Source: Lasiodiplodia sp. COLG20 (Eukaryota; Ascomycota; Dothideomycetes; Botryosphaeriales; Botryosphaeriaceae). Taken from it: a DNA stretch of 64,000 nucleotides. Shown here one piece after another: positions 5,934 to 55,129 of the stretch. The notes below the pieces were generated by a model, which saw only the letters and a program-made list of their open reading frames with translations, ran no database searches and was not told the DNA's origin. How positions within the stretch are numbered: position 1 is the stretch's first letter; each line of letters opens with the position of its first letter. Location: NCBI GenBank assembly GCA_009801085.1, contig VNWV01000001.1, positions 5,642,001 to 5,706,000 of the forward strand, in the 5' to 3' direction. A program made the translations under genes and the position numbers.

Positions 5934-6695
5934 ATGGCGGCCACGGAGAAGGACCAGGAGCAATTGGCACTCGCCCGCAAGCTAAACCACATCCCCTGGT
6001 CTGAGCAGTATGAACGCATGATATCCGGAATGCTGTAAGTAGCCATTTCAGCCTACCAGCTCGCAGCTCGACGAGACCAAAGAGTTCGTCCGCGTGCTGA
6101 GATACTATCCCTTTGCCTCGCCGCTTTTCGTAGTTACGATTCCTTCGTCCCGGAACTCTCGTCGGCCCGCTTCAAAGCCCGCGCCTGGTGCCACAACTAC
6201 AACAACCACTTCCCCATCGAGACGTCGCCGGACTTCGAGTCGCTGCAGAAGCACCGGCTGGGCCTGCTGCGCAACATCATCGGGCACGTCGAGGGCGACG
6301 AGGCCTTCATCGAGCCGCCCTTCTTCATCGACTACGGCTGCAACATCAGCCTCGGCGACCGCTTCTACGCAAACTTCAACCTCACCATCCTCGACTGCGG
6401 GCTCGTCACCATCGGCGACCGCGTCATGTTCGGCCCCAACGTGTCCATTTTCGCCGCCACGCACGAGACCGAGGTGCAGAGCCGCAGGGACAACATCGAG
6501 TACGCCAAGCCGGTTGTGATTGGGGACGACTGCTGGATTGGAGGGAGTGTCATCATCCTGCCGGGCGTGACGATTGGGGAGGGCTGCACCATCGCTGCGG
6601 GAGCGACGGTGACGAAGGACATCCCGGCCTGGAGTGTCGCGATGGGGAGTCCTGCAAGGGTTGTGAAGAAGGTGACGCCCGTGCCGAAGCCATGA
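5934..6695 (+). CDS. Maltose/galactoside O-acetyltransferase-like hexapeptide enzyme
   Basis: Two exons (5934-6034 and 6134-6695), split by a 99-nt GTAAGT..TAG intron, encode 220 aa, about the normal length of the Maa/LacA/NodL family. The N-terminal helical 'Mac' region (ERMISGMLYDSFVPEL, residues 27-42) is reconstituted exactly across the splice. It is followed by the left-handed beta-helix with hexapeptide repeats (DYGCNISLGDRFYANFNLTI and later VVIGDDCWIG, VIILPGVTIGEGCTIAAGATV). The catalytic histidine is expected at H134 in AATHETE. Such enzymes form trimers and move acetyl from acetyl-CoA to a sugar hydroxyl. The true acceptor is unknown. An alternative start at 5841 is possible. No secretion signal is visible. 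It ends the plus-strand run that begins with the dioxygenase. Confidence 0.9.
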
Positions 6696-6874
6696 AGAGT
6701 TCACGAACCATAGATGAAATGCAGACACGATAGAGTTACGACACATAGACATCGGTCTAATAGAAGTACACAACGACACGCTACACATCCCCACTTGCGT
6801 GACAGCGCAGACCCTTGGCCTCCAAAATACACGAAAAGATAACACAAAACCCCCAGTGCCTCTAAAACCCCATA

Positions 6875-9081: not shown

Positions 9082-9680
9082 TCATGACGATACGTTCAAC
9101 CAGGTGTCTAGACCGCACGAAGGCGGTCTGAACATGCCCCATGTGTCGTAGTATGTCACGCCGTTGGGCTCTTTCGTGTTGAGCTGGAAGCTCATGGCTC
9201 CGGGCCCGTTGCCGAAGACCATGCGGAACGGCACCATGGTGCCCGCCGTCATTTCGACCGAGATGCTGTTCGACCCTCTTGACAGGCTAGACGCGAGATC
9301 GGCGTTGAGCTCGGTCCAGGTAGAGATGGCCTTTTGCCCAACCCAGATGTACCCAATGTCGTCGGGGACGGGCAGCGTGAACGTGTAGGTGCCGGTTATG
9401 TTGGGCATGAAGTAGCCGCGGAAGATCATGGCCGAGTAGGCGACGCTGCGGTTGGGGACGCCGTACACAGTGGCCGATGTCGCCGAGGCGGCTGGTATAC
9501 CTAAATTGATTTCGTTCGTTATGCCCTGGTAGTTGATGATGTTGTACGGCGACACTTGCGGGTTGTTGTAGACGCCAGGGTCGAAGGCTACGTAGTTCGG
9601 GTCGTTCGCGGTCGAGCCGCCTGCAATGTTGTTTGGACGGTTGAGGTACTGCAATCCTAAGGCAGAGCAGGATGGTAGGA
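9082..9680 (-). other. C-terminal GLEYA/PA14-like head domain
   Basis: These are the last ~195 residues of the giant protein. The domain opens with a Cys followed by GLQYL, a variant of the GLEYA signature. It then shows FRGYFMPNITGTYTFTLPVPDD, IGYIWVG and a closing MSFQLNTKEPNG strand, the order seen in fungal GLEYA and PA14 lectin domains. The adjacent Asp pair in PDDIGY matches the calcium-binding DcisD position of Flo/Epa lectins. The sequence ends about 30 residues later (GLDTWLNVSS) without a hydrophobic tail. The ligand cannot be predicted. Confidence 0.85.
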
Positions 9681-12600
9681 GGCCCGATGATTTTGTGACT
9701 GATGGTACGATGACTTCGACAGTGCCGGGGTTGGAGATGCCGGTGCCGAGCGGGGCTACTGTGTGTGTGGATGGCGCTGCGGTGCCACTCGTGATAGTTC
9801 TGGTTGAGAAGGAAACGGAACTGGTGCAAGGCGTCAGGACGACCTGGCGGCAGCCGCTTGGAATGGTGCCCATGAGGAAGAGATTATTCTGGCAAAGTGC
9901 AGCCAGGTACTGGCCGTTGGCGGCGTTGGTAACGTGCAGCGTATGATCATCCCAGAAGGTCGTGTCGATGTCAACGTTGCCGCTGGCGCTCGGCAGATCG
10001 AACAGGAATTGCCCGTTCTGAGTTCCAGAACGTTGACAGGAGCCGAGCTCGGCGGTTGTGCCGCCGCCGCTCGTGCAGACGAGTCTCTGGCTAGTGGAGT
10101 CGATCCTAAATGACGAGGCATCGTTGTAGGACTGCGTCAGGCCGCAACCGTGTGCTGTTCCGCTTATGGCGTTGTTCAGTACGTCTAGGTAACCAAAGAA
10201 ATTGCCGACGAAATCCGTCACTGAGATCCTGAACGACGCTGGGGGAGAAGGTTTGACTACGACGGCGTAAGTTCCACTGGGCAGAGTGCCAGTTGGGTCG
10301 GTTGCGACCGTGGTGGTATAGCCGACGCTGCCGCTCGTCACTGTAATGGTCGGGTAGCCCGTAGGGACCACTACCACAGCGTATGTGCCACTGGGCAGCG
10401 TGCCTACCGGATCAGTCGCCACGGTGGTGGTGTAACGAGAGAGGCCGCTTGTCACTGTAATGGTCGGATAGCCGGTCGGAACCACAACCACAGCGTATGT
10501 GCCGCTGGGTAAAGTACCTGCCGGATCGGTAGCCATGGTGGTGGTGTAATGAAGGTTGCCGTTTGTGACCGTGATTGTCGGATAGGCGGTAGGGACCACT
10601 TCCACGGCGTATGTGCCGCTGGGCAGAGTACCAGTAGGATCGGTTGCTATAGTCGTGGTGTAATGCAAGCTGCCGCTCGTTACGGTAATAGTTGGATAGG
10701 CGGTAGGGACCACTACTACAGCGTACGTTCCACTAGGTAGGGTACCTGTGGGATCGAATGCCATTGTTGTTGTGTACGGGGAGCGGTTGCCACTGGTTAT
10801 GGTTACTGTCGTTGGATGGGCTGAAGGAACCACAACGACGGCGTATGTCCCGCTGGGCAATGTACCAGTCGGATCGAATGCCATCGTTGTTGTATAAGGG
10901 GAACGGTCGCCGCTGGTAATGGTGACTGTTGGATGGGCCGTGGGAACCACGACTACAGCGTACGTCCCACTGGGAAGTGTGCCAGACGGGTCGAATGCGA
11001 CAGTCGTGGTGTAATAGGAATTACCAGTAGTTACCGTTATAGTTGGGTAGGCCGTGGGAAGTACAACAACGGCATACGTTCCGCTGGGAAGCGTGCCGGA
11101 TGGGTCGGTCGCAATGATGGTAGTGTACGGGGCGTGATTACCGCTTGTGACGGTGATAGTTGGATGAGCTGCCGCCGTTGGAACAACTACAACGGCATAG
11201 GTTCCGCTGGGAAGGGTGCCAGATGGATCGAATGCGAGAGTTGTGGTGAAAAGAAGACTGCCGGTCGTCACTGTAACGGTCGGATAACGTGGGTTGTGCA
11301 CCACGACGTAAGTTCCCGGAGGAAGCGTCCCAGATGGATCCGTGTATTGAGTCGTCGTGTACGCAACACTGGCATCGTCCGCAGTAATTGTCGGATAGGC
11401 TGGCTCGTGGACAACAACATAAGTTCCAGGAGGAAGCGTTCCAGATGGATCCGTGTATTGAGTTGTAGTGTAAGCAGAATTGCCGTCGTGTACAGTGATT
11501 GTGGGGTGGGTCTGGCCAGGCACGTTGATGACAACATAGGTACCAGGGCCTTGAATACCCACAGGATCGGTGTAAAAGGTGCTGGTGAATGCAACGTTTC
11601 CTGAGGTCTGAACAATCGTGGGGTATGTATGTGTCGGAACATTGACCACGACGTAAGTACCGGGGGGAGCAATTCCTGTCGGATCCGTGTAGGTAGTACG
11701 TGTAAACGCCTCGTTACCGGAAGTTTGTGTAATTGTCGTGTAGACATGCGTGGGAACGTTGATCACGACGTAAGTGCCGGGAGGAGCGATGCCTGTCGGA
11801 TCTGTGAAGGTAGTACGTGTAAACCCGACATCACCAGAAGTCTGAGTGATCGTGCTGTAGCCCGTTGGAACATTGATCACAACGTACGTGCCGGGGCCAA
11901 GGAGACCCGGAGGATCGGTGGAGAGGGTGCTAGTGAAGGCCACGGAACCAGAAGTTTGCGTGTAGCTCGGGTAAGTACGAGTAGGCACATTGACGACAAC
12001 ATACGTGCCAGGGCCGAGGTTTCCTGGAGGATCGGTGTATACAGTGCTCGTGTACGCGACGTTGCCCGAAGTTTGCGTGTACGTGGTCCGCTGGAGGGGA
12101 GCAAGATTGCTCAGACCAGGAAGAACAAGACCGCCAGTGGGATAGTTGACGATGACGTAGGTCGAGGCCGAGGTGGTTGCACCGATGCCTATGATTCCGC
12201 CGTAGGTTGTGTAAGAGGTCGTGGTGAGTGTGTACAAGGACGTGCCGCTGGTTTGGTAGTGTGTGGGAAGAACTGTCGTAGCGTTTCCAGAGCATATAAG
12301 GCCACTGCTCTGGATACACGACAATATGCCGCTACCGCTGCTGAATAAATTGCTTACGAAACAATTCGCCGCGTTCAGCACGCCGTTAGTTCCGAGCGCT
12401 GCCTGGCAAGCCGCTACAGCAGCAACGTCAAGAAGACCGAAGTGGCTGCCGAGATTAGTGCAGGCAACTGGAAGAGCATTCGTGCAGCCGCGGCAAGTTC
12501 CAAGGTTGCCCCAAAGACAGGATCTGAAGTCTTGGGGAGTGAAGCTGGTCAACACGCTGCTCAAGAAGCAAGTTGGTGAAATGGTCGTTCCCAGCACTCC

Positions 12601-15600
12601 CATAGCAGACTTGCACACGGCGATGCTGGCTTCTCCGACGATGTCGGCCAGCAAGCCACTGTCACCGGAACCGAAGTCGCATTCAGTCGGCAGAGCCGTG
12701 ACGCAGGTTGTGGCGGTTGCAGTGCCGCAAGCAGTTGTTGTCGTGGCCTTAACCATCGTACTCGGGACCGAGCCGCTGTCGTTGCAGACAGCGAGTTGAT
12801 TTTGCAAACAGCTGTGGACCGCGGAACCGCCCTGGTTGATGACACTATCCACGAAGCACTGTACCGAAGTGCCACCGCTGAACAAGCCGACTGCAGCCTT
12901 ACAGGCAGCCAACGCACTCGCGCTGCTTCCCAACAGACTGCTACCCGAAAGGCTTGTGAGGGCCGAGCAAACCGAAGGGAACTGGGGAGAGCAGTTTTGG
13001 CAAGTGGGCAAGTTGTTGTACAAACACGTGACGAAGTCATTGTTGTTGCCCAGAATTGATGACACTAGGTTTTCGGCAAAGCACACGGCGGCATTGACAG
13101 TACCAAAAGTCCCGAGAGCAGCCTGGCAGGCAGAGTGGTTGATGGTGCCCACAATGCTTGTGAGGGGGTTGAAGAGACCACCACCGCTGCTGCTGCTGCT
13201 GCTGCTGCCCATACAGGCTGCCGGAAGAGAGGCGAAACAGTTAGGCGTGTCACTTACAGCCCCGGTGGGCAAGCAGACGGCAGCCGACGAGGTTGATGCA
13301 CGGAGGGTGGTCAGACCGGCGGAAGTAGGAAGGTTCACCAAGACTTCCGTAGCCTGGTTTCCATCGGACCAAGTGGTTCCAAAGGTAGTGGTGAATGCCA
13401 ACGATCCAGAGGTACGCGTCCTGGTAAAGACTATACCGGCGCTCGACAAAGGAGCCGCACTGCTGGGGAGGTTCACCAAGACTTCGGTAGCCTGGACCCC
13501 ATTGCCGAACGTAGTACCGAAGGTGGTGGTAAATGCCGACGTTCCAGAGTATTGAGTCCTGGTGATGCGAAGACCAGAGCTCGACGAAGGGGCCGCACTG
13601 GTAGGATGATTGATGACGATCGCAGTAGCCGGACTTCCATTGACCAGTGTAGTAACGGTTGTGGTGAACGACAGTGATCCTGAATTCTGCGTGATCGTGT
13701 AGGTGGTGCCAGTGGGCGTAGGTACATTGACGACGACGTAAGTGCCAGGCGGTGCCGTACCAGCGGGATCGGTGTAACGCGTAGTGGTGAAAGCGACGGA
13801 TCCGCTGGTCTGGGTGATGGTGAGGTAAGTTGGCACATTCACCACCACGTACGTGCCAGCAGGGAGAGTTCCCAGTGGATCGGTGAAAAGGGTGCTGGTA
13901 TAAGCGACAGAACCGCCGGTCTGGGTGATAACTGGATAGGGATGCGTAGGCTCGTTGACCACGACATAGGTACCGGGAGGAGCGGTTCCGTCTGGATCGG
14001 TGAACACGGTGCTAGTATAAGCGACCGATCCGGCGGTTCGGGTGATAGTTGGATGCGTCGGTACGTTGACCACCACATAGGTGCCGGGAGGAGCAGTGCC
14101 ATCGGGATCGATAAACAGCGTACTGGTATAAGCGGTTGGGCCGGCGGTCCGCGTGATAGTTGGATAGGTCGGTACATTAACCACAACATACGTGCCAGGA
14201 GGAGCAGTGCCTGACGGGTCTGTGTAGACCGTGCTGGTATAAGCGACTGAGCCGGCAGTCTGGGTAATCGTTGAACGAGTTGGGACGTTGATTACGACGT
14301 AGGTGCCAGGAGGAGCAGTGCCGTCTGGGTCTGTGAATAGCGTGCTGGTAAAGGCGATTGATCCCGACGTTCGTGTGATGACTGGATAAGGATGGGTTGG
14401 CTCATTAACCACCACGTAGGTGCCGGGAGGAGCAATGCCTGCTGGATCCGTGTAGACGGTGCTCGTAAAAGCAACAGTGCCGGCAGTTTGTGTATACGTG
14501 GAGTACACGGCACCAGTCCGCGAAGAAGTGGGAACGTTGACAACAACTTCAGTAACTGGGGTCCCGTTGATGACTGTGGCAATTGTGGTCGTGAATGGGA
14601 CGGAACCGGCGATCTGCGTAGTCGTGAAAATTGCACCAGGGCTGGGTGCTGTGGTCGGAGAGTTGATGATAACCTGAGTAACGGGGCTGCCATTGATGAG
14701 AGTTGCAACCGTCGTGGTAAACGGAATAGACCCAGAGAATCGAGTAGTCGTAGTGGGTTGAGGTTGCATGCTGATAAGAGCCGTATTCCCTCCACCACCA
14801 CCAGGAATGAGTGGGCCTTGCGAGGTCGGGACGTAGACAATGACTTCCGTGAATGGAAGGCCGCTGTTTATCGTTGGGTCGGACGTCAGGACTGTGGTTG
14901 TGGCGCTTGTTGAACCTGACGTGATCGTTGTGGTGATGACGCCGAATGGCGTGGGGGTCGGGACATTGACGATGACCTGGGTAAACGGCTGACCTCCGTT
15001 GATAGCAGAATTCGACGTCAGCACTGTGGATGTGAAAGCGGCAGGGCCCGAGGTTTGAGTCGTAGTGACTGGCCCAAAAGCTGTTGGCACATTGACCAGG
15101 ACTTCGGTGTATGGCTGCCCGCCGTTAATACTACCAAACGGATCCGAGGTGACGAACGTAGTCGTAAACGGAAGGAAACCGGAAGTCTGTGTGGTGGTGA
15201 ATGGGCCGAATGGTATGGGCACATTAACAATGACTTCAGTGAAAGGCTGGCCTCCGTTGATGCTTCCCGCAGGATCACGGGTGACGATCGTAGTAGTAAA
15301 CGGCACATTGCCAGAGGTCTGCGTGACGGTCGTTGGCCCAAACGGAACGGGCACGTTGACGATGACTTCAGTGAAGGGCTGGCCGCCATTGAAGAGTCCA
15401 CCAGGATCACGGGTAACGACTGTGGTAGTGAAGGGCAGGAAGCCAGAGGTCTGTGTGACGGTGGGCAGGGTCGGAACGTTTACGAGAACCTCGGTGAAGG
15501 GTAGTCCGCCGTTTACCGCGGAGTTGGAAGTAACAAAGGAGGTGGTGAATGGAACGGACCCTGAAGTTTGCGTTGCTGTGAATCCGAAGGGGATCGGCAC

Positions 15601-18600: not shown

Positions 18601-21600
18601 GCTTCCGACAAAGTTGGTTACGGCCGTGGTTGTGAATGGAACGGATCCACCGTAAGGAGTAGTAATCGTAGGAAGGCTTGCAGGCAGAGACGCTGCGGCA
18701 GAAGTAGCGGGATCAAATACAATTACGGCGGAGCCAGAGTATGGGAGACCGTTGCTACCAATGAAGGTAGTGACCGCTGTGGTTGTAGATGTGACAGATC
18801 CAGCATAAGGAGTAGTGATCGTCGGCAGGCTTGCGGGAATGGACGCGACACCAGAGGTAGCGGGGTCAAACACAATCACTGCAGAGCCCGAGTACGGGAC
18901 GCCGTTGCTGCCAATGAACGTCGTAACCGCTGTAGTCGTTGACGGAACGGAGCCGAAGTAGGTGGTCCTGATCGTAGGCAATGCTAAGGCGGTAGCCGGG
19001 TTGTAAACAATAACAGCGGGGCCGGTAGTTGGAAGACCGTCGGGGCCAGTGAAGCTGGTAACAGCTGTCGTTGTGTACGGAACCGAGCCGGGGTAATTGG
19101 TGGTAAGCGTGGGCAAAGGCGCACCACCGGAAATTGCAGTTGCGGGATCGAAGACAATTACCGCGGAGCCTGAGAATGAAATACCATCTGGGCCCACGAA
19201 GTTTGTGACTGCCGTGGTAGTGAAAGGAGTCGAGCCGGCATAGGTCGTCGTTATAGTTGGCAAATTCACAACGGGAGGAAGGGTCGCTGGAGTGGATAGG
19301 CCAGGGGCAGACGGGCTAGGAGCTCCAGGAGCGGACGCGCTCGGAAGTCCAGAACCGGGCTCCCCAGGGCCTTGAGAGACACTAGGGCCAGCGGGACCGG
19401 GAGACGACACAGATGGAGAGGGCGGGCCGGCGAGGTTAGTCACAGGCTGGACCACAACAACATCAGTGTACGGAACTGAGCCGATCGACGTCACGCGGGT
19501 GGATGTGAACAGTACGCTTCCGGAAGTGACCGTGAACGTAGACAGCGGGGAGGCCAGCGCCGTCTGCGGAATATTGACGATGACCTGTGTGGTGGGGGTA
19601 GACGCGCCGGGTAGCGTCGTGACGACTGTGGACGTGAACGGAACGCTGCCCGAGGTCTGAGTAATGGTAGAAAGGACGCCAGCAGACGGAAGGCCGGATC
19701 CCGATGGAACACCAGGTCCTGATGGCGGAGATCCGGAAGGAGCAGGTGCCAGGTTGGTAGGTCCGATTGGAACAACACCACCAGACAGGCTGGCACTAAG
19801 AGAAGCTGATAGGCCGATGTCGATGCCACCAGTTGGCGATACCTGTGGGGCGCCGGACGCTGGACCACTGCCAGATGGACCTGCAGGCGAAGGGCCGCTG
19901 ATTCCAGGACCGGACGCTGATGGAACAGGGGCACCTGAAAGAGAAGCGCCGCTCGCGCCCGGGAGGGAAGCCGACGGGGCACCGCTGCCAGAAGGCAGGC
20001 CAGGTTGAGAGACAGCAGAGCCAGACGGTGCCGGCAGACCAGGTCCAGATGGACCAAGAGAGCCCGAAGGTGCACCAGGAGCAGATCCCGAAGGGAGAGC
20101 AGCAGACCCAGAAGGACCGACAGATCCGCTGGGGAGACCAGCTGATCCACCTGGTCCAGATGGCCCAGATGGCCCGGCAGCGCCAGAAGAAGGCACGCCA
20201 GGAGCCGACAACGACGCAGAGCCACTGACTGCTGGTACGCCAGCCGAGGGACCGGATATAGAAGCGGGAGGAGCCAAGTTGGTCGGAATTCCGCCGGAAG
20301 GCAGCAGAGCTCCGCTTGGGGAGGAGCCAGAAGCACCGCTGGGAGCGCTGCCGCCACTGGGCAGGCCTGAAGCGCCAGGGCCCAAGTTCGTAGGGGCACT
20401 CGGGGCGCCGCTGACAGAGCCGCCGCCGCCGCCAGGCAAGCCCGAAGGGCTAGGTGACACGAACAAACCGGAGCCGCTTGGAACGATTGAACCGCCGAGA
20501 GTGCCTGAGCCGCTGGGAAGACCGGCGCCGCTTGACAAACTAGCCAAGTTGCTAAGCGGTCCACCAGATGGTATAAGAGGTCCGCCAGATGGCAGTTGAG
20601 CGCCGCTTGAAGCAGCACCAGGAGCGCCGCTGACAGAGCCGCTTGGTAGAATTGAGCTGCCAGGCGCACCCGAACCGCCGGGGAGAACAGAGCCGGAAGC
20701 AGCAGGAGTAACAGAGCCTCCAGGAAGACCAGAGCCCGAAGGTACACCAGGAATGGAGGCAGCTCCCGACGGAAGGCCAGACAGAGACGCACCGCCAGGG
20801 CCCAAGTTGCTCGGGCCTCCGCCGGTCGGCAGGCCTGAGACGCCACCACTCGGCAGCGGACCGCCGGGCACCGAGATGCCGGCGCTGACGGAAACGCTCG
20901 CGGAGACGATGAGATCAGTTGCGGGAGCGGAGAAGCCAGGAAGAGTGCCAGATGGTGCTGGACCGCCACCAGGCGAGGCTGAGCTCGGCGATGAACCAGC
21001 GGCACCGGGTGATGTCGTCGGGAGAACCACGACGATTGCCGTGACGGGCGGGCCGACGACGCCGCCGGTAGAATCGGTTGGCGTGACCAGGGCCGTCGTG
21101 GTGAAAGGCACGCCGCTGCCGGATAACGAAGTGATCGTGGGCAGGGCCACCGAGGTGGGGACGACGACGATGACGCCGGTGACGGGTGGACCGGTCGGAA
21201 TGCCCGCAGCGTTGGTCGGGGTGACCAAGCCTGTGGTTGTGAAGGCGGAGTTGCCAGATACCGACGTGACCGTGGGCAAGCCGGCTGATGGTCCAGCTGG
21301 GCTCGCGCCAGTTGGTGCAGGCGAGGCGTCGGAGGTCGGGACATACACGATAACGGCCGTGTACGGCGCAGCAGTAGCGATGCCAGCGGCGTTTGTCGGA
21401 ATGATCAGACCGGTGGTGGTGTAGGCGCGGTTGCCGGCAGTCGATGTGACCGTTGGCAAGGCTGTTGGGGCCGCAGTCGCGCTTCCAGGAGCTCCAGATG
21501 TCGGGACGAATACAATCACACCTGTGATGGGCGAGGCAGTAGGGATTCCGGCGGCGTTGGTTGGAGTGACCAAACCAACGGTAGTGAAGGCAACGCTGCC

Positions 21601-42600: not shown

Positions 42601-45600
42601 CGAGACACTGCCATCAGAGAGAGTGAAGACCGGCGTGGCGAATACAGTGCCGGTTGTGCTGTCACCCGCATACGGCCTGCCGGTCACAAACGCTGGCACC
42701 GAGGCACTTAGTCCTAGAGAAGGCGTCGGAGAGCCTACAGCCGTCGCAGGCACCTCAACGAGAACCGTGCCGAGCGTGCCACCGGAAGTTGGGTACAGCG
42801 TCAGCGACCTCGTCGTGCTTCCAGAGTAAACCGCCGTGAGTGTGGTCGCCGGGTCCACCGCTCCCGAGAAAGGCGGGGCGGGATCCAGGCTCATCACCGT
42901 CGGGGATGGGAATGCCACGCCGCTGATGATCGGCGTCACAGTTACGGTTTCCGGCGCAATAACTCCAGCAGCAGGCCTACCAGTCAACGCTGGCGCTGCC
43001 GTAGCCGAAGAGCCCGTGGGGAACGGAGCGGTGAGAGAGCCGGCAGACAATGCCGAACCCACACCTCCAATCAAGGGGACCTCGACAAGGAGTGTGCCGA
43101 GTGTGCCGCCAGAGGTCGGGTGGAGCGTCAGGGACTTGGTGATGCTGCCAGTGTAGAAGACGGTCACGGTCGTCGCAGGATCCAGAGCACCGGTGAACAG
43201 CGACGCTGCCGGGATCAGGTTGAGCGCAGTAGGCAAGGCTGCCACGCCACTGACGAACAGCGTCCCCGTCAGGGTTGCCGTGATGGTGTCGCCTTGGTAT
43301 GGGCGGCCAATTTGTGCCGGTGGCAGCGACGGGGAGGCAGTGAGCGAAGGCAGGCCAGAGGCCGCAGCCGTTGCGGGAATCTCGATGAGAATGGTACCAA
43401 GAGTGCCGCCAGAAGTAGGGTGCAGGGTGAGCAAGGCCGTCGTGCTTCCAGGATAGAAGGCAGTGAGTGTCGTAGACGGATCAATGGGACCCGTGAAGAA
43501 CGACGTTGCTGGATCCAAGCTGAGGGCGGTAGGACTGCCAATAGGAGAGATACCAACGAAAGGTACAGCAGTAATGGTCGCAGGCGAACTGCCACCCTGG
43601 TATGGACGGCCGCCGATCGCTGGCCCTGCTGTAGTTGCCAAAGGTTGACTCGCCGAGCCGGACGCGAGGGCCGTCAACGGGACTTCCACCAGCAGTGTTC
43701 CAACCGTACCGCCGCTCGTGGGCAGCAGGGTAAGAGTCTTCACCGTACTGCCGTCGTAGAAAGCGGTCATCGTAGTAGACGGGTCGATCGGTCCAGGAAA
43801 CGGTGAAGTTGCCGGGATGAGGCCAATCGCACCAGGCAAGCCAATAGGCGAGACGCCCACGAACGGCGTGGCCGTGACGGTTCCAGTAGTGGAATCGCCT
43901 TGATACGGTCTTCCGCCGAGGACTGGAGGAGTCACGCCAGGACTACCGCTGACTGTGGCAGAGGGGAAGCCCGGAAGGGAGGCCCCAGACGCTGTTAACG
44001 GAATCTCAACCAAGATCGTGCCTAGGGTCCCGCCGCTAGTTGGCAGCAGCGTGAGGGACAGGGTGATGAAACCTGGATAGAAGGCCGATAAGGTAGTAAC
44101 GGGATCCACTGGTCCTGTAAACAATGCAGTCGCCGGGGTCAAGCTGATGGCTCCAGGAACACCGATGAGCGAACCGCCAGCAAAGGGTGTGGCCGTCACT
44201 ATTCCTGCGGTGGTGCCGCCGATGTAGGGACGACCACTCAAGATGGCTGGCACAGAAGCTGATGCGGTGGCTGGGCCAGATGCAGCATTGAATGGCGTCT
44301 GGACAAGTAGTGTGCCGGCCGTTTGACCGCTGAGCGGAAGGAGGGTCACGGTGCGGATCGTCGAGCCGCCATACGGTGCCGTCAGCGTGGTGGCGGGGTC
44401 GATGGGGCCACTGTACGGCGTCGGGGCGGGAGTGATCAGGAAGGTTTGTAGGGCGGCGCTGGCCAGCGGACCGAGGCTATTGCCAGGTGCAGCCGTGATG
44501 GTGGCGATGCTGCCGTCTCCGCCAACGTATGGGCGAGCCAGCAAGCTAGCTTGAGCAGACGCCGAAAGCAGGCCGGTTGCAGAAGCAGAGCCAGGGGCCA
44601 GAAGCGACACAGGTAGTGAAGCCAGAGGATTGGGTGTCTGTACCAAGTACGTGCCGGCGCTCTGTCCGCTGAGCGGATAGAGAGTGAGTGTGCGCGTCGT
44701 CGCGCCAGCCCATGGTGCCAAGAGCGTTACGGCTGGATCCACGAATCCCGAGTACGGTGTAGGAGCAGGTGTGAGGACATAAGTTAGCGGAGCGGCGCCG
44801 GCGAGTGGGCCAGAGCTTCCACCAGGAACAGCCGTGATAGTCGCAACAATACCGTCACCGCCGTAGTACGGGCGAGAGATCGGCCCAAGGAGAGAAGGCG
44901 TAGCAGAAGCAGTAGGGCCAGCGAAAGGCGTCTCGATCAGTATAGTTCCAATCGTCTGACCTGCTGCGGGATGCAGTGTGAGTACTTGCGTAGTTGAGCC
45001 GAAGTAAGGAGCGGTAAGTCTCGTCAGCGGATCGATTAAGCCGGTGTATGCCGTTGTAGCAGGTGTGAGGATAAAGGTCAACGGGATGCCGCCGGGCAAG
45101 AGGCCCAGGATTCCACCTGGAAGAGCCGTAATAGTCTGAACAGATCCATCACCGCCATTGTACGACAGAATTGGAAGGCCCGTCGGAAGGGCAGATGCAG
45201 AGGGAAGGCTGGCTGGCCCAGTGGGAGACACCGAGCCTATTGCGGAAGCACCCGCCAACGGAGTTTGCACGAGCAATGTACCCGCAGTCTGGCCAGAAAG
45301 CGGGAGCAGCGTCACCGTCCTTGTGGTCAAGCCGGTCCAAGGCGCTGTGAGCCTCGTGGCCGTGTCGACAGGGCCAGTGTACGGCGTCGTCGCAGGCGTA
45401 ATGATGAGGGCCGTGGGCGGCAAGTTAACCAACAAGCTCGACCCAGGGACACCTGAAACCTGCTGGAATACACCGGGTGTCACTGTCACAGTGGCAATCA
45501 CGGAGTCTCCAACGTAAGGCCGGCCCACAGCGGCAACTGAGGATGGCAGACCGGAGGCAGTGGTAGCAAGCGGTGGCGAGGCTGAAGCCGAAGCGCCAGG

Positions 45601-48600
45601 GAAGCTCGAGGCGGAAGCCGCAGGGGTGGCTGGAATCTCGAGAACGACCGTACCCAGGGTTTGTGCGCCGGTGGGGTGCAGAATGAGCGTGCTCGTCGTC
45701 GACCCGCCGTATATCATCGACAGCGTCGTGACAGGGTCCACCAGGCCAGTGTAACGAGCCGTGGCCGGAGTGAGAACCACCGTTGTAGGCTGGCCGACCG
45801 CGGGAACCACCAGACCGTTGGATAGGGTGGTTAAGCTGAAAGGCGTCGCGGTAATGACTGCTGTCGTGCTGCCCCCATCGTAGGGCCTGGGGAAGGCTGG
45901 AGCGGAGATCGAAGGCGCAGCCGACGGAGTGAAGGCACCCGCAGGAATCTCGATGAGCTGTGTAGCGGCTGTGTCGGTGCCAGTGGGGTGGATAACCAGC
46001 GTGCGAGAAGCAGTGCCGGTCCATGGAATCGTCACGGCCGCAGCGGTATCAGTCGGGCCTGACCAGGGCGTAGGAGCAGGTATCAAAGTAAGGACAATTG
46101 GCGCACTTGCGGGAACGCCGCCCAAGATTGGGGTGACGGTGACGATGCCGCTTATTGTGTCTCCATCGTACAGCGCTATGGATGGAAGAGCCGGAAGTCG
46201 CGTTACAGACGCTCCGAGAGATCCGGACACACTGACAGCAGGAGTAACGCCAGGGATCTCAATCAACAGTGATCCCGCAGTGTCCGTACCATAAGGTAGG
46301 ATCGTCAACGTCCTGGTCGTAAGACCCGTCCACCTAGTGGTAAACTGGGCGGATGGCTGAAGCGTACCAGTGTACGGCAGTGTGGCAGGCGTAAGCGTGA
46401 AGACAGTTGGCGACGCGATGGCCGAAATGCCATTCCAGGGCACAGCCGTGAAGGTCGCAATGGTGGAGTCGCCGAAGTACTGCCTACCGGTCGACGCCAA
46501 AGGCGAGAGCGAAGACGGGACGGGCACTGCAGCGGTCGCGCTGGCGAAAGCAGGGCGAGGAATCTCGACGACCAAGGTGCCAGGCTCACCAAAACCGTCA
46601 GGAAGGAACGTGATTGTCTTGACGGCCGTTCCATCGTAAGGCGCCATCAGCGTAATGAGATCGAAAGGACCAGTGAAGCTGGCAGTGCCCGTGTACGGCA
46701 CGAGCGTGTACGTAACGGGAAGACCAGTCGAGCCGTACGGGAAAACTGTGATGAAGCCAGATGTTGAGTCACCCACGTACAACTTACGAGGGAATCCGAT
46801 CGTGTTAACAGGCGAGGGGGTGATGGTAGGAGAAGCGAGGCCGGTCAAGCCGCTAGGCAAGCTGAGGACTCCAGGCGTCTGCACAAGAACAGTACCCGCC
46901 ACATCAGTGCCAGTGGGGAAGAGGGTATAGACCTTCGTTGTTGATCCAGCCCAAGGCGCAGTGAAGGTAACAGTCGCCAGCGGGCCAGTGAATGGCACAG
47001 CTGTTGGGCTAAGGTAAAAGGTCGTAAGCCCGGCCGAGATACCGATGGAGGCAGCGGTAATGACTGCTGGTGTCGTGTCGCCAAAGTACGGCCGAACGCC
47101 GGTTTGGATACCAGGCAAGCTTGCAGAAGGACCGGAAGCGATAGCAGACGCCGGAGTCTGAATTAGATACGTCGCAAGCGTCTGTGTGCCCGTGGGATAC
47201 AGAGTCAAGGTCCTGACTGAAGGTCCAGGATACGGCGCAAAGAATGTGTTGGCCGGATCAACTGGATAAGTCAATGACGCAGTGGCAGGCGTAAGGAAGA
47301 GTCCCGTTGGAAGACCACCAAGCCCGAGCAATGCAGTTACAGCGATGGCGGTGCTGTCACCAGCATATGGCCTGGGTATAGTAGCAGAAGGCACCAAGAG
47401 CGACTGGCCTGGCGGAATCAATGAACCGGTGGGCAAAGGAGCAGCCGTCAATGGAACTTGCAGTAGGTAAGTTCCAGCAGTATCAGTGCCAGTCGGCAGC
47501 AAGATCAGCGTCTTCGTAGTTGTACCGGTCCACGGTGCTGTGAACGTGAAAGACGGGTTGATCGGCCCAGTGAAGGTAGCGAAGGGGGCGGGCGTCAGCG
47601 GGAACAGCGTTGGTAGCGCACCAATACCTAAAGAGGCAGTAATAACACCGGCTGTCACATCGCCAACGTACGGGCGACCAGAAGCGGCCGGCAGCGATGA
47701 AATCACCGAGGGAGCCGCCGTCCGTGGGAGCTCAACCAAAAGAGTTGCATCAGTTTCAGTGCCAATAGGCAGCAACGTCAATGTTCTCGTAGTTGTGCCA
47801 GTCCAAGATGCCGTGAACGTGATCAATGTGTTAAGACGCCCGGTGAACATAGGACCACTGTACGGAGTGAGCGGAAGAAGCGTCAGACCCGCACCACCAA
47901 GACCAAGGTTGAACGAAGCAGTGACCAAGTCGGTTACCGAATCACCCATGTATGGGCGAACCGGTGCCGAGAGCGTTGGCGCAGCAGTTACCGAGGGCAA
48001 GCCAATGGGAACGCTGGCGGAGGGAAGACCGGTTGGTTGCGGAATTTGCAGCAGAGTCGTGCCAGATAGCTGCCCACCCGTCGGCAAGAGGATCAAGGTC
48101 TTTGTGGTTGAGCCAGTCCAGATCGCCGTGAAAGTCACGAGCGGATCGTATGGCCCTGTAAAGGTTGTCGTCGCTGGCGTCAAGGTAATCTGAGTGAGAA
48201 TTCCACCGAGAACCGTAGATGCGCCAACAACACCGCTCGTAGTATCACCGATATACGGTCTTCCGGCACCCGTCGGCAGAGCAACAGCCGTGGATCCAGT
48301 ACCCGTGGGAAGCTGGACCAAGACTGTTCCCTCTGTCTGGCCAGGAAGGGGCAGCAGAGTAACAGTTATAGGTACGATTCCTGGGTATCCAGCAGTCAGA
48401 GTGACTGAGGGGTTGACCGGGCCTGCGAAGACTGTGCCAGTCGCTGGCACGAGGTTAATCACAGTCGGTACGACTAGGCCACCTCCTGATACGGTGATCG
48501 GGCCAGACGAGGTGCCGCCAACGTACGGACGGTCGAGGATGCCAGCGGAAATGGAAGTACCACTGGGAATGCTAGACGCGGTAGGCGAGACCGGTGCCAG

Positions 48601-51600
48601 ATTTGTGAGGCCCGGCTGCGAAACAAGGGCGAACGGAGTCTGCACAACAACAGTGATGACCTGCCCGGGCGTAATTACTCCGGTAGGTGTAATCGTGTAC
48701 GTTGAGACGACAGATCCAGAGTAGCCGAGCGTGCTTGTGGTGTAGCTGAATGCAACTGAAGACTGACTCGGGACCACACCAGGAGTAGCAACGACCCGAG
48801 TGGCCACCGTGTTCGTCGGATTATTAGGCAGGATCGTCCATGTGGTGGTGGCAGTTCCAGTCCACGGGATCGTGAAAGTAGTAGCCGGATCGATCGCGCC
48901 CGCAAAAGTCCCGGGTGGTGCTGGCGTCAAAGTGAAGGTCACAGGGAAACCACCAAAGACCGGCGTGATGGTCATGGTGTTGGATCCAAGGACATACGGG
49001 AAGAGACCGCCAGTCGGTATAGACGTCAGGGTGGACGCAGGGATGGACGGCCGGGTCGACGTCGGTATAGACGACGGGCTTGCGGACGAGGCGACGAAGC
49101 CGGTGGGTGTCTGAACAACGAGGAAACCAGTAGCCGTTAGATCAGCCAGATTACTCGGGAGGACGGTCAACGTGACAGGCGTCAGGCCGGCGTATCCGAC
49201 AGTCAAAGGCGTGGCTGTGTTGATCACACCATTCCAACTGGCCACGGTTGCTGGTGTCAGCGTAAGAATGCCGGAAACACCGCCAATTCTCGCGGGAACG
49301 AGAACAGTGGATGTGCCGCCGATGTATGGAAGGTTCAAGCCTACACCAGGCACAGGAGGAGCAGAAACAGAGAGACCCGCAGAGAGACCAGCAGAAATGG
49401 AAACGCTAGCCGCGGGAATGCCGGAGGGTCCTGAAGCACTAGCGCTGAGAAGACCAGAAGGTGATCCTGAGGGACCAGACGCGGAAGGGCTGAATGAACC
49501 CGAAGCACCAGCCGCGGGAACGCTGATGGAGCCTGAAGGACCAGCCACAGAAAGGCCGGAGGATCCTGAAGCGCCAGTCGTGCCAGCACTCAAAGAAGAT
49601 GCCGAAGCACCTACCGTGCCGAGGCTCGAGAGAGATGCTGGTACTGTCTGGATTATGATGGTACCGTGCGTTTGGGTGCCAGTGGGGACCATGGTGTACG
49701 TCGTCGGGAATAGACCAGCGATCGTGTACGTGTTCACAGGGTCAATCAGACCAGTATAAGGCGTGGTCGTTGGTACCATAGTGAAGGTGTACGTGGCAGC
49801 GCCCATCGTAGCTGAGACGAAGGTGGTCGCGGTTCCAGTGACGTAGGGCACGTTGTTGTTCGTTGGGGGCAGACCGCCAGGGCCAACGATGGGGGGACGC
49901 GTGGGGATCCCTATCACGACTGTCGGAGTTTCCACCACGATTGTGCCTTGGGTCTCTCCTGGTGCAGGGAGCAGGGTCAAGGTGGCGGTGATTGAACCGT
50001 CATAGCCGATCGTCGGAGTGTAGGTCACGAAGGGGCCAGTGAAGCCTACCTGAACCGGCGTGATCCAAACTGGTGTCGGAACACCGTTGACGGTGGGTGT
50101 GATGGTCACGAGACCATTTCCACCAATGTAGCCCTGAGTCCTCAGGCCAGTCGGCAAACCAAGGTTGGTAGCGGCCGAGGGCAGAGACACGAAGGCAGTG
50201 GAAGGAACAACCACCACAATCGTTCCAAGGCTATCGGTTCCGGCTGGGAGAAGAGTCAACGTAGCGGGCGTAGGTTGCGAGCCAACAATAGTGAGCGTAG
50301 CAGCGGCGAATGGGCCTGTGAAAACTCCACTGGTCGGACTAAGAGCCACCGTGGACAGCACGCCGTTAATGAGAGGCGTAATCACCGTGGGAGAGAGACC
50401 GCCAATGTATGGCTTAGTGGTTGGGCCAGTCGGTAGCGCCGAAGGGCTCAGCGAAGCCGAAGCCCCAATAGTAGGGGTCTGAAGCACTACTATGCCGAGT
50501 CCAGTAGCCCCGTTCGCAGGCACAATTGTGATCAAGCGAGATGTCGAGCCGCCGTAAGGAAGTGTCAGAATGCCGCTTTGCACCGCTCCGGTATAGGTAG
50601 TAAGCGTGGGAGTGAGGGCGAGCGTTGCAAGGGCACCAGAGATGAGCGGCGTGATAGTCTGAGTCTCGCTCCCGCCAATGTAAGGCAGCGTCAGGATGCC
50701 AACATTTGGAAGTGAAACAGTGGCAGTTCCTGTAAGACCTGAGAGCAATCCGCTAACACCAGAAGACAATCCGCTGGCGCCAGAAGGCGATCCGCTGGCG
50801 CCTGAAGGCTGTCCAATGGTGCTACCCGCGCCAGGGGGGAACAGATTGCTAACGCCGATTGGAACCAGAGCACTAGCTGGCGTCTGCACGACAACCGTTC
50901 CGACCAAGTTCGTTCCAGCGGGCAGGATAGTGATGGTCTGGGCAGCGGTAATCTGTGCAGGTACCGTCCAAGTGACCGGGCCCACGGGAATGCTCAGATA
51001 AGTATTGACGACGGGCGTCAAAGTCACCGCAGCGTTCAGTGGCAAGCCACTAATCGTCGGTGAAATGATCAGGGTATTGACGCCTCCGACGTATGGCAAA
51101 GCGACCCCGATGCTTATTCCACCACCCGGGGAACCAGCAGTCGGCGATGCGGACCCAAGAGCTGGCGTTAGGATGGCGATCTGGCCAAGTGATTCTGTGC
51201 CCACAGGAAGAAGCGTGATAGTCACAACCGAGGCTCCTGTCCAGGGCGCCGTCAGAGTTCTTGAAGGATCAACAGCGCCAGTGTATGCGGTAGGGGCAGG
51301 TGTCAAAACCACACCCAGGCTAGCCGCGATACCACTAAGGGTAGGGTTGATAGCCAAGGTGCCGGTAATTCCAATCCCGACATAGGGGCGCGTGAGTCCG
51401 GCCGCAGCAGAGAGAGTATTGACTCCAGAAGGCGGGGTGACAACTGCAGAAGGCGAAATGGCCGCGGAAGATTGAATCACGGCGGAAGACGGAATGCTGG
51501 CCGCAGAAGACGAGGCCCTGATTGAAGAAGACGGAATAGCAGCCACAGAAGACGAAATAGCCGCGGACGAGAGGACAACCGCAGAAGACGAGATGACAGC

Positions 51601-54600
51601 TGCAGGAGACGGGGTGGAAGATGTAGACGGGAGCGGAGTCATAACCATAACAGTAGCCAGTCCACCTGGCGTCGCAGGAGCCAATGTGATCGTATTGGCG
51701 GTGCTACCGCTGTAGCCGGCGGTCAAGGTTGAAGAGGCAACAGGGATCGTGATCCGCGGGGGGAGCGACGAAGTCAGCGGAATAACGAACATCTGCCTGA
51801 CGGAGCCGTTGAGGGTCACAAGTGCCGTGCTCGTGGTTGTGCAGCCGACACAGAATTGAACGATCGCGTCCGGCGGGATGGCGGGAGACGACGTCGGCGG
51901 GGGTGTAATAGTCGGCTGCCCAACACCGATAGATAGGCCAACACCAGGAGATTGACCAAGACCGAGAGATGCCGAAATTCCAATGAGCGGGCCCGTAGGG
52001 GCAGCTCCTGCTGGCGTCTCGATGAGCACAATGCCTACGACATTGGTGCCAGTTGGCAGAATCGTCAGTGTCTGTGTCGCCGTCCCATCGTAGGGCATTG
52101 TCAACGTAAAGAAGACATCAAGGAAGCCAGTGAAGATTGTGCTTGTGGTGACCGGGAGCAGAGATAGGCTAGTCGTGCTGCCTCCATACGTAGCGATACC
52201 ATTGATGGTCGTCGATCCTGAGATGTAGTATGTGACGAGAGGCAACACAGGAGAAGTGCTCGAGGGGGTAAGACCAGTCGGAGTCTGAACCAGGAGTGTG
52301 CCCAGTGCAGAAACCCCAGTCGGCACGAGGGTCAGAGTCCGAGTGCTGGATCCAGGCCAACCCACCGTGATCTGGTTGTTCGGATCTATGGCGGGGATGC
52401 TAGAAGGCGTGGGTACAGGAGTAATAGCAAACGTTATCGGCGTGCCGTTACTCGTGGCTGTCACTATTGCGATGGTCGAATCACCGATGTAAGGCAAGGT
52501 GCTGACGGCTGCAGGGACACCGGAAGGCGTGACTGCAGAACCACCTGAAGGCGTGACTGCAGCGCCACCTGAAGGTGTGACTGCAGGGGTCCCTGAAGAA
52601 AGACCTACGGAAGCAATGGGTGAACCTCCAAGGCTGGCTGGGGTCTGAAGCACGACAGTGCCGAGTTGAGAACCCGGCGGTATGACGGTGATCAGTGTAG
52701 GCGTCGTGCCGGGGTATGGGGCAGTAATGATAGTTGGGAATAAGCCTCCAGGGAACACGAGACCGGCAGACGGGCTCAGAACAATGCCAATTGGAGCACT
52801 GGACGGTCCAAACGGCAAAATCGCGGTAGAGATGCCAGTTCCTGTCATGAACGGCCAGGTTGGGAGGCCCCCTGGGGGCCCAGCCGTGCCAGATCCACTT
52901 TGTCCAGCTGACGCCGAAGGAATTAGACCAGTGGGGGGAGAGCCGATTGGCTCGAACACCACTGCTGTTCCCAAAGTCTCAGTGCCGGTGGGAAGTATCG
53001 TGGCAGTGACTCTGGTCGGGCCGTCAAACGGAACGGTCAAGGTAACCGTGCCTACGGGACCAGTGTACGTGGTAACAGAGGCCGGAACTAGGCCCACAGT
53101 TTGCTCTTGCGTGCCAACGGTCGCTACCAGCGTCACTGGCCCAGGCAGACCAACAACCGGACGACCTGTGATGCCTCCGGGATTCAAGTTGCTCACGGGA
53201 GGTGGCAGAGCCGTGTTAGGAACTTCAATAATGACTGTTCCGACGCCACTTGTCGGGACGACTGTCAACGTAGTTGCTGCAGTACCAGTGGCGACCGCAT
53301 AAATGGTTGTTGTCGCAGTAGCATAGTATGAGACGGACCGAGTTGCGGGGACCATGTACAGAAGACGCGGTATGCCACCGATTGTCACGGTAACAAAGGT
53401 AGCAGTCGACCCAAGGTATGTCAAAGTGAACACACCAGACGGTGAGATGCTGTTGGTCGGTCCTGCTGTGATGGTACTAGGTGGCGGCAAGGTAGCTGTC
53501 GGTGTTTCTATGACCAGAGTTGCCTCATTGGCGCCACCTGGGGTTGGGACAATCGTCAACGTGGTAGTGGTAAATCCAGCGTAGCCCGCGGTATATGTGC
53601 TGGTGGCTGTCGGACCAGCAAATGCGGTAATGGTAGCGGGCGTGAGCACCACACCCTCAGTTATTGAGCCAGATGTGACGGTCAGAGTCGTTGACACTGC
53701 ACCGAGATACGGCAAAGTGACAAAGGACGAAACCGCCGGGCCCAAATTCGTGAGTGGGTTGCTAGGGATGACAGACTGCTGGGAAGAAGCCGAGAGCGCC
53801 TGCTGGGAAGATACCGCAGAGATACCCCCAGCTGAAGACCCTACGCCGATGGGTAATGAAGTCCCTTGGCCTAAATTGGTGTTTAGGCCAGTGGCAAGGG
53901 ATTGCTGGGAGGAAGACACTGGGGGGACTTGGCCAGCAGCACTGCTTGAAACACCCTCAGCTGGAGGTTGGGCGCCGCCGGACACTGAAGATTCCAGACT
54001 GGAGATACCAGTCGAAATGCTACTGCTCAACACACTCGGAGCTTGCGAGCTGATAGCTGATGACTCCAGTTGGCCCAGGTTAGTGTTCGGATTGCTGACA
54101 AGAGCTTGCAAGGATGTCGAGGTACTACTGGAGACTTGCGCGCCGCTGGACACAGAAGTACTAGTCGAGGCTGAGGATTCTGGAGCGGCTCCTGCTGAAG
54201 TAGCGGCCGAGGAGCCAGCAGCTAAGGATTGCAGGCTAGTGGACGATGAAGCAATAGATGAGCCAGTGCCAAAGGTACCCTCAGCCGAAGTGGCAGTTGA
54301 GGAGCTCTCAGCTGTGGATACTGAAGTGGCAGTCGAGAGGCTAGAGCTGGTGGATGATGGAGACCCTTGGTTCAAATTGGTAGGCGGGTTCCCACTGATG
54401 AGTGACTGCCGCGACGATCTCGAGGAGCTCGAACCAGCCGGGGCTGGATTAAAACTCAAGCTAAATACCTCAGAGCTGGAGGATCGTGATGACCGCCGGG
54501 AGGATGATGACCTCCGAGAGGAGGATGAAGATGACCGAGAGGAGGACTGGCGAGTCTGTTAGTCTCCATTCTCGAAGTGCGCCGAAACGTGAAAGCTTCA

Positions 54601-55129
54601 GTCCCAATAAACGGCACACTGCGGCCAGAGTCAGATGCGCTAGACAGAGACTTACCACACTCGTAGAGCTGCTGCGTGCTGGAGGTGCCAATTGCGTGTT
54701 TACTGGTGGCGCAAGTCCACCACCACCAAAAGAAGTGCTGGTTAGCGTCGTGGAAAGGCTAGAAGATACAGAATTGCCAGGTGCAGCGACACGAGTGGTT
54801 GTTGTCGTAAATCCAGAACCGGAAGGATTGATCGTGAGTGTGTGCGTTCTTGTTCCCAGATGGGTAGAGTAGACAGTCACGACCGTAACAATATTCGTGG
54901 GGACATCGTCAGGGCCGACTTCGATGGACACACCGGGTCCGATGGAAAGAGTCGTGGGGCGCGTGACACGGGTGCTCACGGCGACCGGTTGTTGGTAGAT
55001 GGTGGGCACGACGTCGTATTCGACAATGCAGTCCGGATTGTGGACGACAACCTGGCGGCGACCCAGGATGCCACCGGCAGCCGGTGGCAGCAAGAGGCCG
55101 GCCACCAGGCCGAGGCTGCGCAAAACCAT
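9082..55129 (-). CDS. Giant GLEYA-type adhesin-like secreted repeat protein, ~15,315 aa
   Basis: Exon 1 is 54656-55129 (158 codons). A 100-nt intron follows with GTAAGT donor and ACAG acceptor (54556-54655), then one exon, 9082-54555, of 15,157 codons plus stop. The phase-0 join keeps the frame. A signal peptide (about residues 1-20, with GLVAGLLL core) precedes a dibasic GRRQ. Almost all the rest is Thr/Ser/Gly/Pro-rich beta-type repeat in several families (annotated separately). The chain ends in a Cys-containing module and a GLEYA/PA14-like domain with GLQYL, the Asp-Asp of PDDIGYIW, and no hydrophobic GPI tail. Known family members are wall adhesins that bind glycans through this head. 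Here it is C-terminal, and the repeats form the presumed stalk, likely heavily O-mannosylated. I infer secretion and attachment or aggregation. A 45-kb frame with no stop shows strong selection or very recent expansion. Misassembly of repeats could alter the exact length. Confidence 0.88.
9820..10245 (-). other. Cys-containing module preceding the head
   Basis: This non-repetitive segment of about 140 residues has five or six cysteines. It starts at SFRISVTDFVGNFFGYLDVL and ends at SGCRQVVLTPC. Aromatic and Gly positions (GYLDV, FLFDLPSASG, GQYLAALCQNN) suggest a compact beta-rich fold, perhaps disulfide-bonded. I cannot name the family. Its place directly before the GLEYA head suggests it supports or extends the binding end. 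Confidence 0.6.
10246..11290 (-). repeat. Nine ~38-aa repeats, TLPSGTYAVVVVPT type
   Basis: Nine head-to-tail units of about 115 bp have the core pattern PTITVTSG..YTTT.A.DP.GTLPSGTYAVVVVPT. Long stretches are near-identical at DNA level (for example the codons for LPSGTYAVVV), which suggests recent amplification or gene conversion. They resemble flocculin-type Thr-rich repeats. Confidence 0.85.
11291..12110 (-). repeat. Seven ~37-aa repeats, PPGTYVVVNVPT type
   Basis: Seven units follow the pattern Y.TITQTSG.VAFT.T.YTDP.G..PPGTYVVVNVPT. The two nearest the C terminus have drifted (ITVHDGNSAY, ITADDASVAY) toward the neighbouring TLPSGTY family, so the two blocks grade into each other. Confidence 0.8.
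12281..13282 (-). other. Cys-rich region of four related modules inside the stalk
   Basis: About 330 residues with roughly two dozen cysteines interrupt the Thr repeats. Four related modules can be aligned by eye, each with LP..C, then AC.AA.G..GT...CF and a following C[LI]......C. Modules 1 and 3 share an extra N-terminal Cys pair and end in CQNC or CRGC, and modules 2 and 4 lack these. The region therefore looks like a duplicated two-module block. Predicted character is helical and disulfide-bonded, unlike the beta repeats around it. I do not recognise the family. Confidence 0.7.
13186..13209. repeat. CTG/CAG-type trinucleotide tract
   Basis: A pure run of GCT/CTG repeats encodes the Ser run (after AACMG) in the first Cys-rich module of the giant protein. 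It is a likely slippage site that preserves frame. Confidence 0.8.
13283..17120 (-). repeat. Mixed flocculin-like ~35-50 aa repeats
   Basis: Several sub-blocks can be told apart. At 13700-14500 there are seven units of T.TAGSVAYTSTVYTDP.GTAPPGTYVVVNVPT. At about 14830-16440 there are 13 units of TTTQTSG.LPFTTTFVTSNP..NGGQPFTEVLVNVPTPF. Single divergent units join them, and at 16440-17120 a few units contain ITSGSVP and AVVIFQP. All share a TSG...FTTT...V.VNVPT skeleton. Confidence 0.8.
17121..19720 (-). repeat. LPTITTTYAGSVPFTTT repeats and NSNLA units
   Basis: Ten units of about 43 aa (17860-19265) follow LPTITT.Y.GSVPFTTTAVT.F.G.NG.P.SGSAVIVF.PAT. This is the closest match in the protein to classic flocculin repeats (TG.F..T..T.TG.NG...ETVIVI..P). 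Four longer units at 17121-17800 each begin with a NSNLA linker and SLLTITST.GS.PYTTT. Two divergent units sit at about 19450-19680. Confidence 0.8.
19720..21005 (-). other. Gly/Ser/Pro/Ala-rich linker
   Basis: About 430 residues consist almost only of G, S, P, A, L and V in patterns such as LPSGSG, PSGP and SGAPS, punctuated by TNLAP, SNLAS and TNLGP. No beta repeat is present. It probably forms a flexible or polyproline-like spacer between two stalk segments. Confidence 0.75.
21010..34785 (-). repeat. Family B: ~77 repeats, LPTITS...FTSTGLITPTN type
   Basis: I counted about 77 units by their end motif (F/Y)(S/P/T)GVIVFVP. A unit of about 45 residues reads LPTITS.AG..AFTSTGLITPTNSAG..TGTPFSGVIVFVPS, often with an extra Gly/Ser/Pro spacer of 5-40 residues. 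Units are diverged, more alike to neighbours than to distant ones, as expected for local duplication and conversion. Longer linkers interrupt the block, for example at 25960-26310. Confidence 0.85.
34786..35274 (-). other. Ser/Gly-rich linker between repeat families
   Basis: About 160 residues rich in S, G, L, A and P (SGSLPSG, SGQPPLLSG, TALAPGASSLSG patterns) mark the switch from family A to family B repeats. Confidence 0.7.
35275..53710 (-). repeat. Family A: 58 repeats, RPY.GDTTTG...GTLLVEVP type
   Basis: Counting the terminal strand (GT.LVE.P and variants) gives 58 units averaging about 106 residues. The unit reads RPYQGDTTTG.(I/V)TATP....L...P..FTGP.DP.TT.TA.YPGSTTK.LTLLPT.GGTLGTLLVEVP, then a variable Ser/Ala/Pro spacer. 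Units toward the N terminus are more divergent (LPYIGG, ETP endings). Those at about 35.3-46 kb are more uniform, suggesting more recent expansion there. Each unit probably forms a small beta domain. Confidence 0.85.
52510..52600 (-). repeat. Short ~30-bp tandem repeat
   Basis: Three near-identical units encode copies of AVTPSGG within a family A spacer. It is a small in-frame minisatellite. Confidence 0.75.
53711..55129 (-). other. N-terminal region of the giant protein: signal peptide, small domain, RS-rich and Ser-rich segments
   Basis: Residues 1-20 form a signal peptide. Residues 26-110 contain NPDCIVEYDVVPTIYQQP and repeat-like TIYQQ and TYSTHLG strands. The exon junction (54656/54555) is followed by an Arg/Ser-rich stretch with two SRR motifs. 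About 270 Ser/Thr/Ala/Gly-rich residues then carry four spaced TNLNQ, TNLGQ and TNLGP motifs. The segment is likely densely O-glycosylated. Confidence 0.75.

Follow-up and report, generated by a model that had tools for sequence, protein, structure and literature searches.

A 45.9-kb two-exon gene of Lasiodiplodia sp. COLG20 with the sequence features of a giant GLEYA adhesin

Analysis of a 64,000-nt stretch of the Lasiodiplodia sp. COLG20 genome (C1:5642001-5706000, here called the window; the assembly comprises 43.5 Mb in 88 contigs) led to a two-exon gene of 45.9 kb on the minus strand. The gene is predicted to encode a polypeptide of 15,312 amino acids (1.48 MDa unmodified) which carries a GLEYA head at its C-terminus, 195 repeats of two kinds, and an N-terminal module that is also present on two other long frames in this genome. 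To judge from these features, the product would be an extremely long member of the GLEYA adhesins that lack a glycosylphosphatidylinositol (GPI) anchor, a kind known from fission yeasts and filamentous fungi. The explanation that we favour, and that we regard as likely though well short of certain, is that the protein is secreted and serves as a very long sugar-coated tether, which would be held at the wall by the N-terminal module and would present at its free C-terminus a lectin head that depends on calcium.

The open frame and its repeats

A preliminary description of this DNA had rightly taken it for fungal and had recognized a single giant frame on the minus strand. Between 54555 and 9082 the terminal TGA is indeed the only stop codon; the remaining five frames of the region contain 234 to 1,373 stops each, and in 20 mononucleotide shuffles the average was 414.8. 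The start codon at 55129 is the first ATG past an in-frame stop, and the length of the product encoded by the spliced coding sequence of 45,939 nt agrees with the ca. 15,300 residues expected earlier. The clean join to a signal-peptide exon that had been proposed stands in so far as the exons are connected in phase 0 through a short intron with canonical signals (GTAAGT donor, CTAAC branch-like element, CAG acceptor), but exon 2 begins at 54546 and not at 54555. The start of exon 1 is signal-peptide-like, as had been claimed, with a hydrophobic stretch that is visible by eye and by hydropathy; a dibasic RR occurs at residues 24-25 and Cys34 is the sole cysteine of this exon. C makes up 0.32-0.55 of codon position 2 in each of the 52 blocks of the frame, and this bias stays while charge and serine content vary from end to end.

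The predicted chain consists of 30% Ser+Thr and 12% Pro with 24 Lys, and its longest run without D, E, K, R or H extends over 438 residues. The repeats cover 9,559 of the 15,312 residues and comprise 57 copies of a type A domain of ca. 75 residues (consensus RPYVGDTTTGTVTATP...LTLLPTGGGTLGTLLVEVP) and 138 copies of a type B repeat of ca. 39 residues (consensus TITSTSGSVPFTTTGLTTPTNSAGIPTGSPFTGVIVFVP) that span residues 6749-14924, with linkers rich in Ser, Gly, Ala and Pro within the arrays. Both profiles were trained on this very protein, and stretches were kept if they covered more than 60% of the profile at more than 8 bits (type A, 57 of 144 kept) or more than 5 bits (type B, 138 of 177 kept); all kept type A copies and 137 of the 138 type B copies score above 15 bits. 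Neither profile gave a match in the reversed or in the shuffled protein. The two parts of the type B array are separated by four six-cysteine modules whose spacings of 8, 15 and 8 do not vary. Their pattern was derived from this sequence itself; when the region was shuffled 2,000 times, four such modules never appeared. For the domain ahead of the head (residues 14930-15066), Pfam and NCBIfam scans gave no match.

An AlphaFold model of two type A units, based on an alignment of the protein's own repeats only (32 of 47 two-unit windows listed), predicts two beta domains joined by a disordered linker at positions 83-99 (pLDDT 84, pTM 0.57). No solved structure matched this model well. Tail and head were modelled from the query together with 18 windows, each of five units, that came from the more densely packed stretches of type B repeats; the result was poor (pLDDT 46), and type B units took the form of short strands with middling confidence.

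The preliminary description had further held that the repeats are diverged and that the frame is maintained by selection, and both claims hold. The longest exact direct repeat is 30 nt, and between repeats the best gapless identity reaches 86% in 100 nt, 83.5% in 200 nt and 78% in 400 nt. The locus is situated within a contig of 8,457,327 bases. Since the repeats are divergent, it is unlikely that identical copies were collapsed or inflated. In some fungi, repeat-induced point mutation acts at roughly 80% identity; the best value over 400 nt lies slightly below this threshold, and this process could be what keeps the array diverged.

Neighbouring type B repeats differ at 22, 17 and 56% of codon positions 1, 2 and 3 (135 of 137 pairs; two pairs more than 150 residues apart were dropped), and neighbouring type A repeats at 39, 31 and 64% (all 56 pairs). 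The ratio of nonsynonymous to synonymous substitutions (dN/dS) of adjacent repeats in the true frame is 0.16 for type B and 0.26 for type A, as compared to 1.73 and 1.91 (type B) and 1.33 and 1.48 (type A) in the shifted frames. Among the closest type B matches, the 40 that rank highest give a ratio of 0.11, with reciprocal pairs counted twice. The values are only rough because dS is near saturation, but the contrast between the frames is plain: the 195 repeats of both kinds are under purifying selection in the true frame.

The GLEYA head and the N-terminal module

The preliminary description had placed a GLEYA/PA14-like head at the end of the protein, and both profiles confirm it, with 93-96 bits for GLEYA (PF10528, cut-off 26.2) and 24.3-26.5 bits for PA14 (cut-off 24). 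Relatives of known structure are Cea1 (E 4.7e-5), Epa6 (1.3e-4) and Epa1 (6.7e-4 and weaker). Asp-Asp at 15220-15221 and Asn 15271 coincide in the alignments with the corresponding residues of Cea1 and Epa6, which the available text of PMC6308950 and PMC6218569 describes as the calcium site, formed by Asp-Asp of CBL1 and Asn of CBL2. Of the motif G(M/L)(E/A/N/Q)YA, four of the five positions are found in the head (GLQYL at 15122). No hydrophobic tail of the GPI type was detected by hydropathy at the C-terminus of the protein, where the best 19-residue value is 0.6 in the last 40 windows as compared to 1.6 in the first 30.

The recurrence of the N-terminal module, which goes beyond the preliminary description, was found in searches of the genome that covered six frames, read exon by exon, with only the best candidates scored. 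Exon 1 matched C56:1871362 (E 2.2e-8, 40% identity) and a locus on C34 (E 9.2e-5, 33%), and searches started from C56 and from C34 each recovered the other two members (E 2.8e-9 and 4.1e-6 from C56; 2.4e-6 and 2.7e-6 from C34). No Pfam family scored above its cut-off in the module. The C56 frame (C56:1871347-1894110) runs uninterrupted from Met to stop over 7,584 residues with 22% Ser, 18% Leu, 15% Pro and no cysteine, and its middle part matches the GLTT repeat profile above the cut-off. Its length is less secure because the longest exact repeat there is 105 nt. As the homologous module is continuous in one frame with giant Ser-rich sequence, the C56 frame independently supports the way in which the two exons of the window gene are joined. 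No hydrophobic tail was found in the C56 frame, and its last 1,935 residues contain no Pfam family or head at E ≤ 1. Close to the end of the C34 frame lies a GTAAGT donor; downstream of it, an orphan frame of 145 codons, which occurs only once in the genome, would fit as a second exon. The three frames with the module would end differently: in GLEYA (the 15,312-residue protein), in the orphan 145-residue frame (C34) and in nothing recognizable (the 7,584-residue protein).

In the same searches, all 37 matches of a type A two-unit window, the single match of the cysteine region and all nine matches of the distal type B array are at this locus, two of the nine being antisense with stops. Read in antisense (window 10232-11359, plus strand), the distal type B array resembles its sense version with 40% identity (E 1.4e-38) and 20 stops, which is probably an effect of codon composition. 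The Candida_ALS profile is above its cut-off at six places in the genome, all of them in the giant frame. One other GLEYA locus was found (C11:282069-282344), also with a C-terminal head.

Table 1. Features of the giant gene and of the C34 relative (positions in the window unless a contig is given)
Feature	Position	Strand	Remarks
Exon 1	54656-55129	-	474 nt, 158 codons; signal-peptide-like start
N-terminal module	54791-55123	-	residues 3-113; common to two further long Ser-rich frames
Intron	54547-54655	-	109 nt, phase 0, GTAAGT...GACTAACAG...CAG
Exon 2	9082-54546	-	45,465 nt including TGA; 15,154 codons; no internal stop
Ser-rich stem	53713-54546	-	residues 159-436; basic Ser/Arg stretch at 159-185
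Type A array	35278-53712	-	57 copies of ca. 75-residue domain, residues 437-6581
Type B array, main part	13327-34776	-	ca. 39-residue repeats, residues 6749-13898
Ser/Gly/Pro linker inside type B array	19669-21018	-	450 residues, 11335-11784
Four six-cysteine modules	12292-13239	-	residues 13928-14243; C-x7-C-x(17-28)-C-x14-C-x(14-18)-C-x7-C
Type B array, distal part	10249-12084	-	16 repeats, residues 14313-14924
Uncharacterised domain ahead of head	9823-10233	-	residues 14930-15066, six Cys
GLEYA head	9082-9657	-	Pfam match 9175-9432, residues 15197-15282 of 15312
C34 member	C34, 601540 downwards	-	1,591 codons, 32% Ser

The flanks of the gene (window 2454-8224 and 60775-64000) hold ordinary neighbours, among them a Fungal_trans_2 regulator (4424-5590), an N-acetylglutamate synthase gene from 62142 onwards, and frames that by eye resemble phytanoyl-CoA dioxygenase, maltose acetyltransferase and hydroxyisobutyrate dehydrogenase. 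Among the best 120 of 1,281 matches of the N-acetylglutamate synthase, the top one is 97% identical, followed by proteins from Diplodia intermedia (89%), LTHEOB_9604 (labelled Neofusicoccum parvum, 82%) and Macrophomina phaseolina (80%). Diplodia belongs to the Botryosphaeriaceae, and by this gene the fungus is a Diplodia-like representative of the family.

Comparison with known proteins

GLEYA adhesins have a signal peptide and repeats but no GPI signal, as far as the available text of PMC8621652 describes them, and the position of their binding domain at the C-terminus suggests another form of wall attachment according to the accessible part of PMC6308950. The same two excerpts state that Epa1, a GLEYA protein, does require a GPI anchor. 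The adhesins of fission yeasts likewise lack a GPI signal and carry a C-terminal binding domain in the account given by the available portion of PMC6023273, and according to the available text of PMC6218569 the domains with Asp-Asp from filamentous fungi cluster with those of fission yeasts. The giant protein shares with the GPI-less GLEYA adhesins the signal-like start, the Ser/Thr-rich repeats, the C-terminal lectin-type domain with its Asp-Asp motif and the lack of a GPI-type tail. It differs from them in its 15,312 residues, its two repeat families and four six-cysteine modules, and in two more parts, namely an additional domain that precedes the head and an N-terminal module common to other long proteins. 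The GLEYA protein encoded at C11:282069 is similar in its C-terminal GLEYA domain (32% identity over 111 residues), but there is no giant array in a stretch of 9.9 kb at that locus and it has Asp-Asn in place of the Asp-Asp of the giant protein.

Among the yeast adhesins with PA14/GLEYA domains (Flo, Epa, Cea1), Cea1, Epa6 and Epa1 have heads homologous to that of the giant protein, which includes the calcium-site residues. Unlike the GPI-anchored flocculins of the Flo/Epa type, with an N-terminal head and a GPI signal, the giant protein has its head at the C-terminus and no GPI-type tail by hydropathy. Neither Flocculin (PF00624) nor Flocculin_t3 (PF13928) was found over the whole protein, which was scanned in pieces at E ≤ 0.1 or E ≤ 1, and for four pieces at E ≤ 10. 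Similarity to the Candida Als proteins is restricted to a 33-residue repeat profile, Candida_ALS, which scores 29.1 bits (cut-off 25) in one type A piece and 25.0, 21.6 and 20.5 bits in other pieces; the Als N-terminal domain gave no Pfam match in exon 1 or in the first 4,999 residues that exon 2 encodes.

At least one fungal gene probably has a longer frame, since that of the peptaibol synthetase TEX1 reportedly contains an unbroken one of about 62.8 kb. The earlier ranking of exon 2 with the longest single coding exons of fungi may be right, but exon 2 would not hold the record. The TEX1-type synthetases are also giant fungal proteins made by tandem duplication, but they are enzymes of peptide synthesis and hence another kind of protein. 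For TEX1, the available text of PMC2823734 gives eighteen modules and tandem duplication.

Possible function and alternative explanations

The preliminary description had suggested an extracellular tether or aggregation factor, a role that remains an inference. As a tether, the chain would be secreted by means of its signal peptide, and with its high content of Ser and Thr it would be densely O-mannosylated. Stiff beta-domain beads with flexible linkers would then form a thread, for which a reach of the order of 1 µm can be estimated if each of the 195 repeats contributes the few nm that are usually quoted for such domains, plus the linkers. The N-terminal module would retain the thread at the wall, the cysteine modules might brace or cross-link it near its end, and the GLEYA head would bind glycans in a calcium-dependent manner for adhesion between cells or to surfaces.

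A secreted mucin-like glycoprotein of a matrix or of spore mucilage, not bound to the wall, is rather unlikely but would account for several of the same features. In such a protein the repeats would hold water and glycans, the cysteine modules would cross-link the chains, and the head would bind matrix glycans. The absence of a GPI-type tail, the abundance of Ser, Thr and Pro, the charge-free stretches of up to 438 residues and the presence of four six-cysteine modules that could form cross-links all fit this explanation, as does a second giant frame (C56) that has neither cysteine nor a recognizable Pfam head in its final part. However, the repeats are constrained domains and not plain Ser/Thr filler, and the GPI-less proteins of the GLEYA and fission-yeast type are treated as cell-surface adhesins in the available text of PMC6023273 and PMC6308950.

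It is also conceivable, but improbable, that the frame is expressed as at least two shorter proteins, by way of internal promoters, undetected introns or dibasic cleavage, so that the full chain never exists. The protein has 39 internal Met residues and dibasic sites at residues 24, 169 and 175, but a cut at 169 or 175 would spare nearly the whole chain. GTRAGT donors within exon 2 number three, as compared to 4.0 ± 1.9 in synonymous shuffles (n = 100), so that intron-like signals are at chance level, and the intron candidates all share a single donor, at residue 13922. One candidate, of 135 nt and in frame, may be a true intron, and its removal would cut into the first cysteine module. Against a division of the frame stand the 45.5 kb without a stop, the bias at codon position 2 in every block and the constraint on both arrays. 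Repeat genes are in general prone to inflation in assemblies, but it is hardly credible that a far shorter gene was inflated here, with no exact repeat beyond 30 nt, at best 78% identity over 400 nt and a contig of 8.46 Mb.

The genome may even hold a family of giant GPI-less wall tethers, in which a common N-terminal anchor module and a giant stalk are combined with exchangeable C-terminal ends. We put this wider proposal forward tentatively, as a possibility only, together with the suggestions that the gene in the window encodes the longest fungal adhesin described and that type A is perhaps a new beta domain. Attachment to the wall would in that case proceed through the N-terminus, by a route that no known module explains. 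An adhesin of this length under selection raises the question of how great a distance from its wall a fungus can bridge with a sticky head, and such a chain also poses the question of how it is folded and secreted. The N-terminal module, present on three long proteins, would be a concrete candidate for how GPI-less adhesins hold on to the wall.

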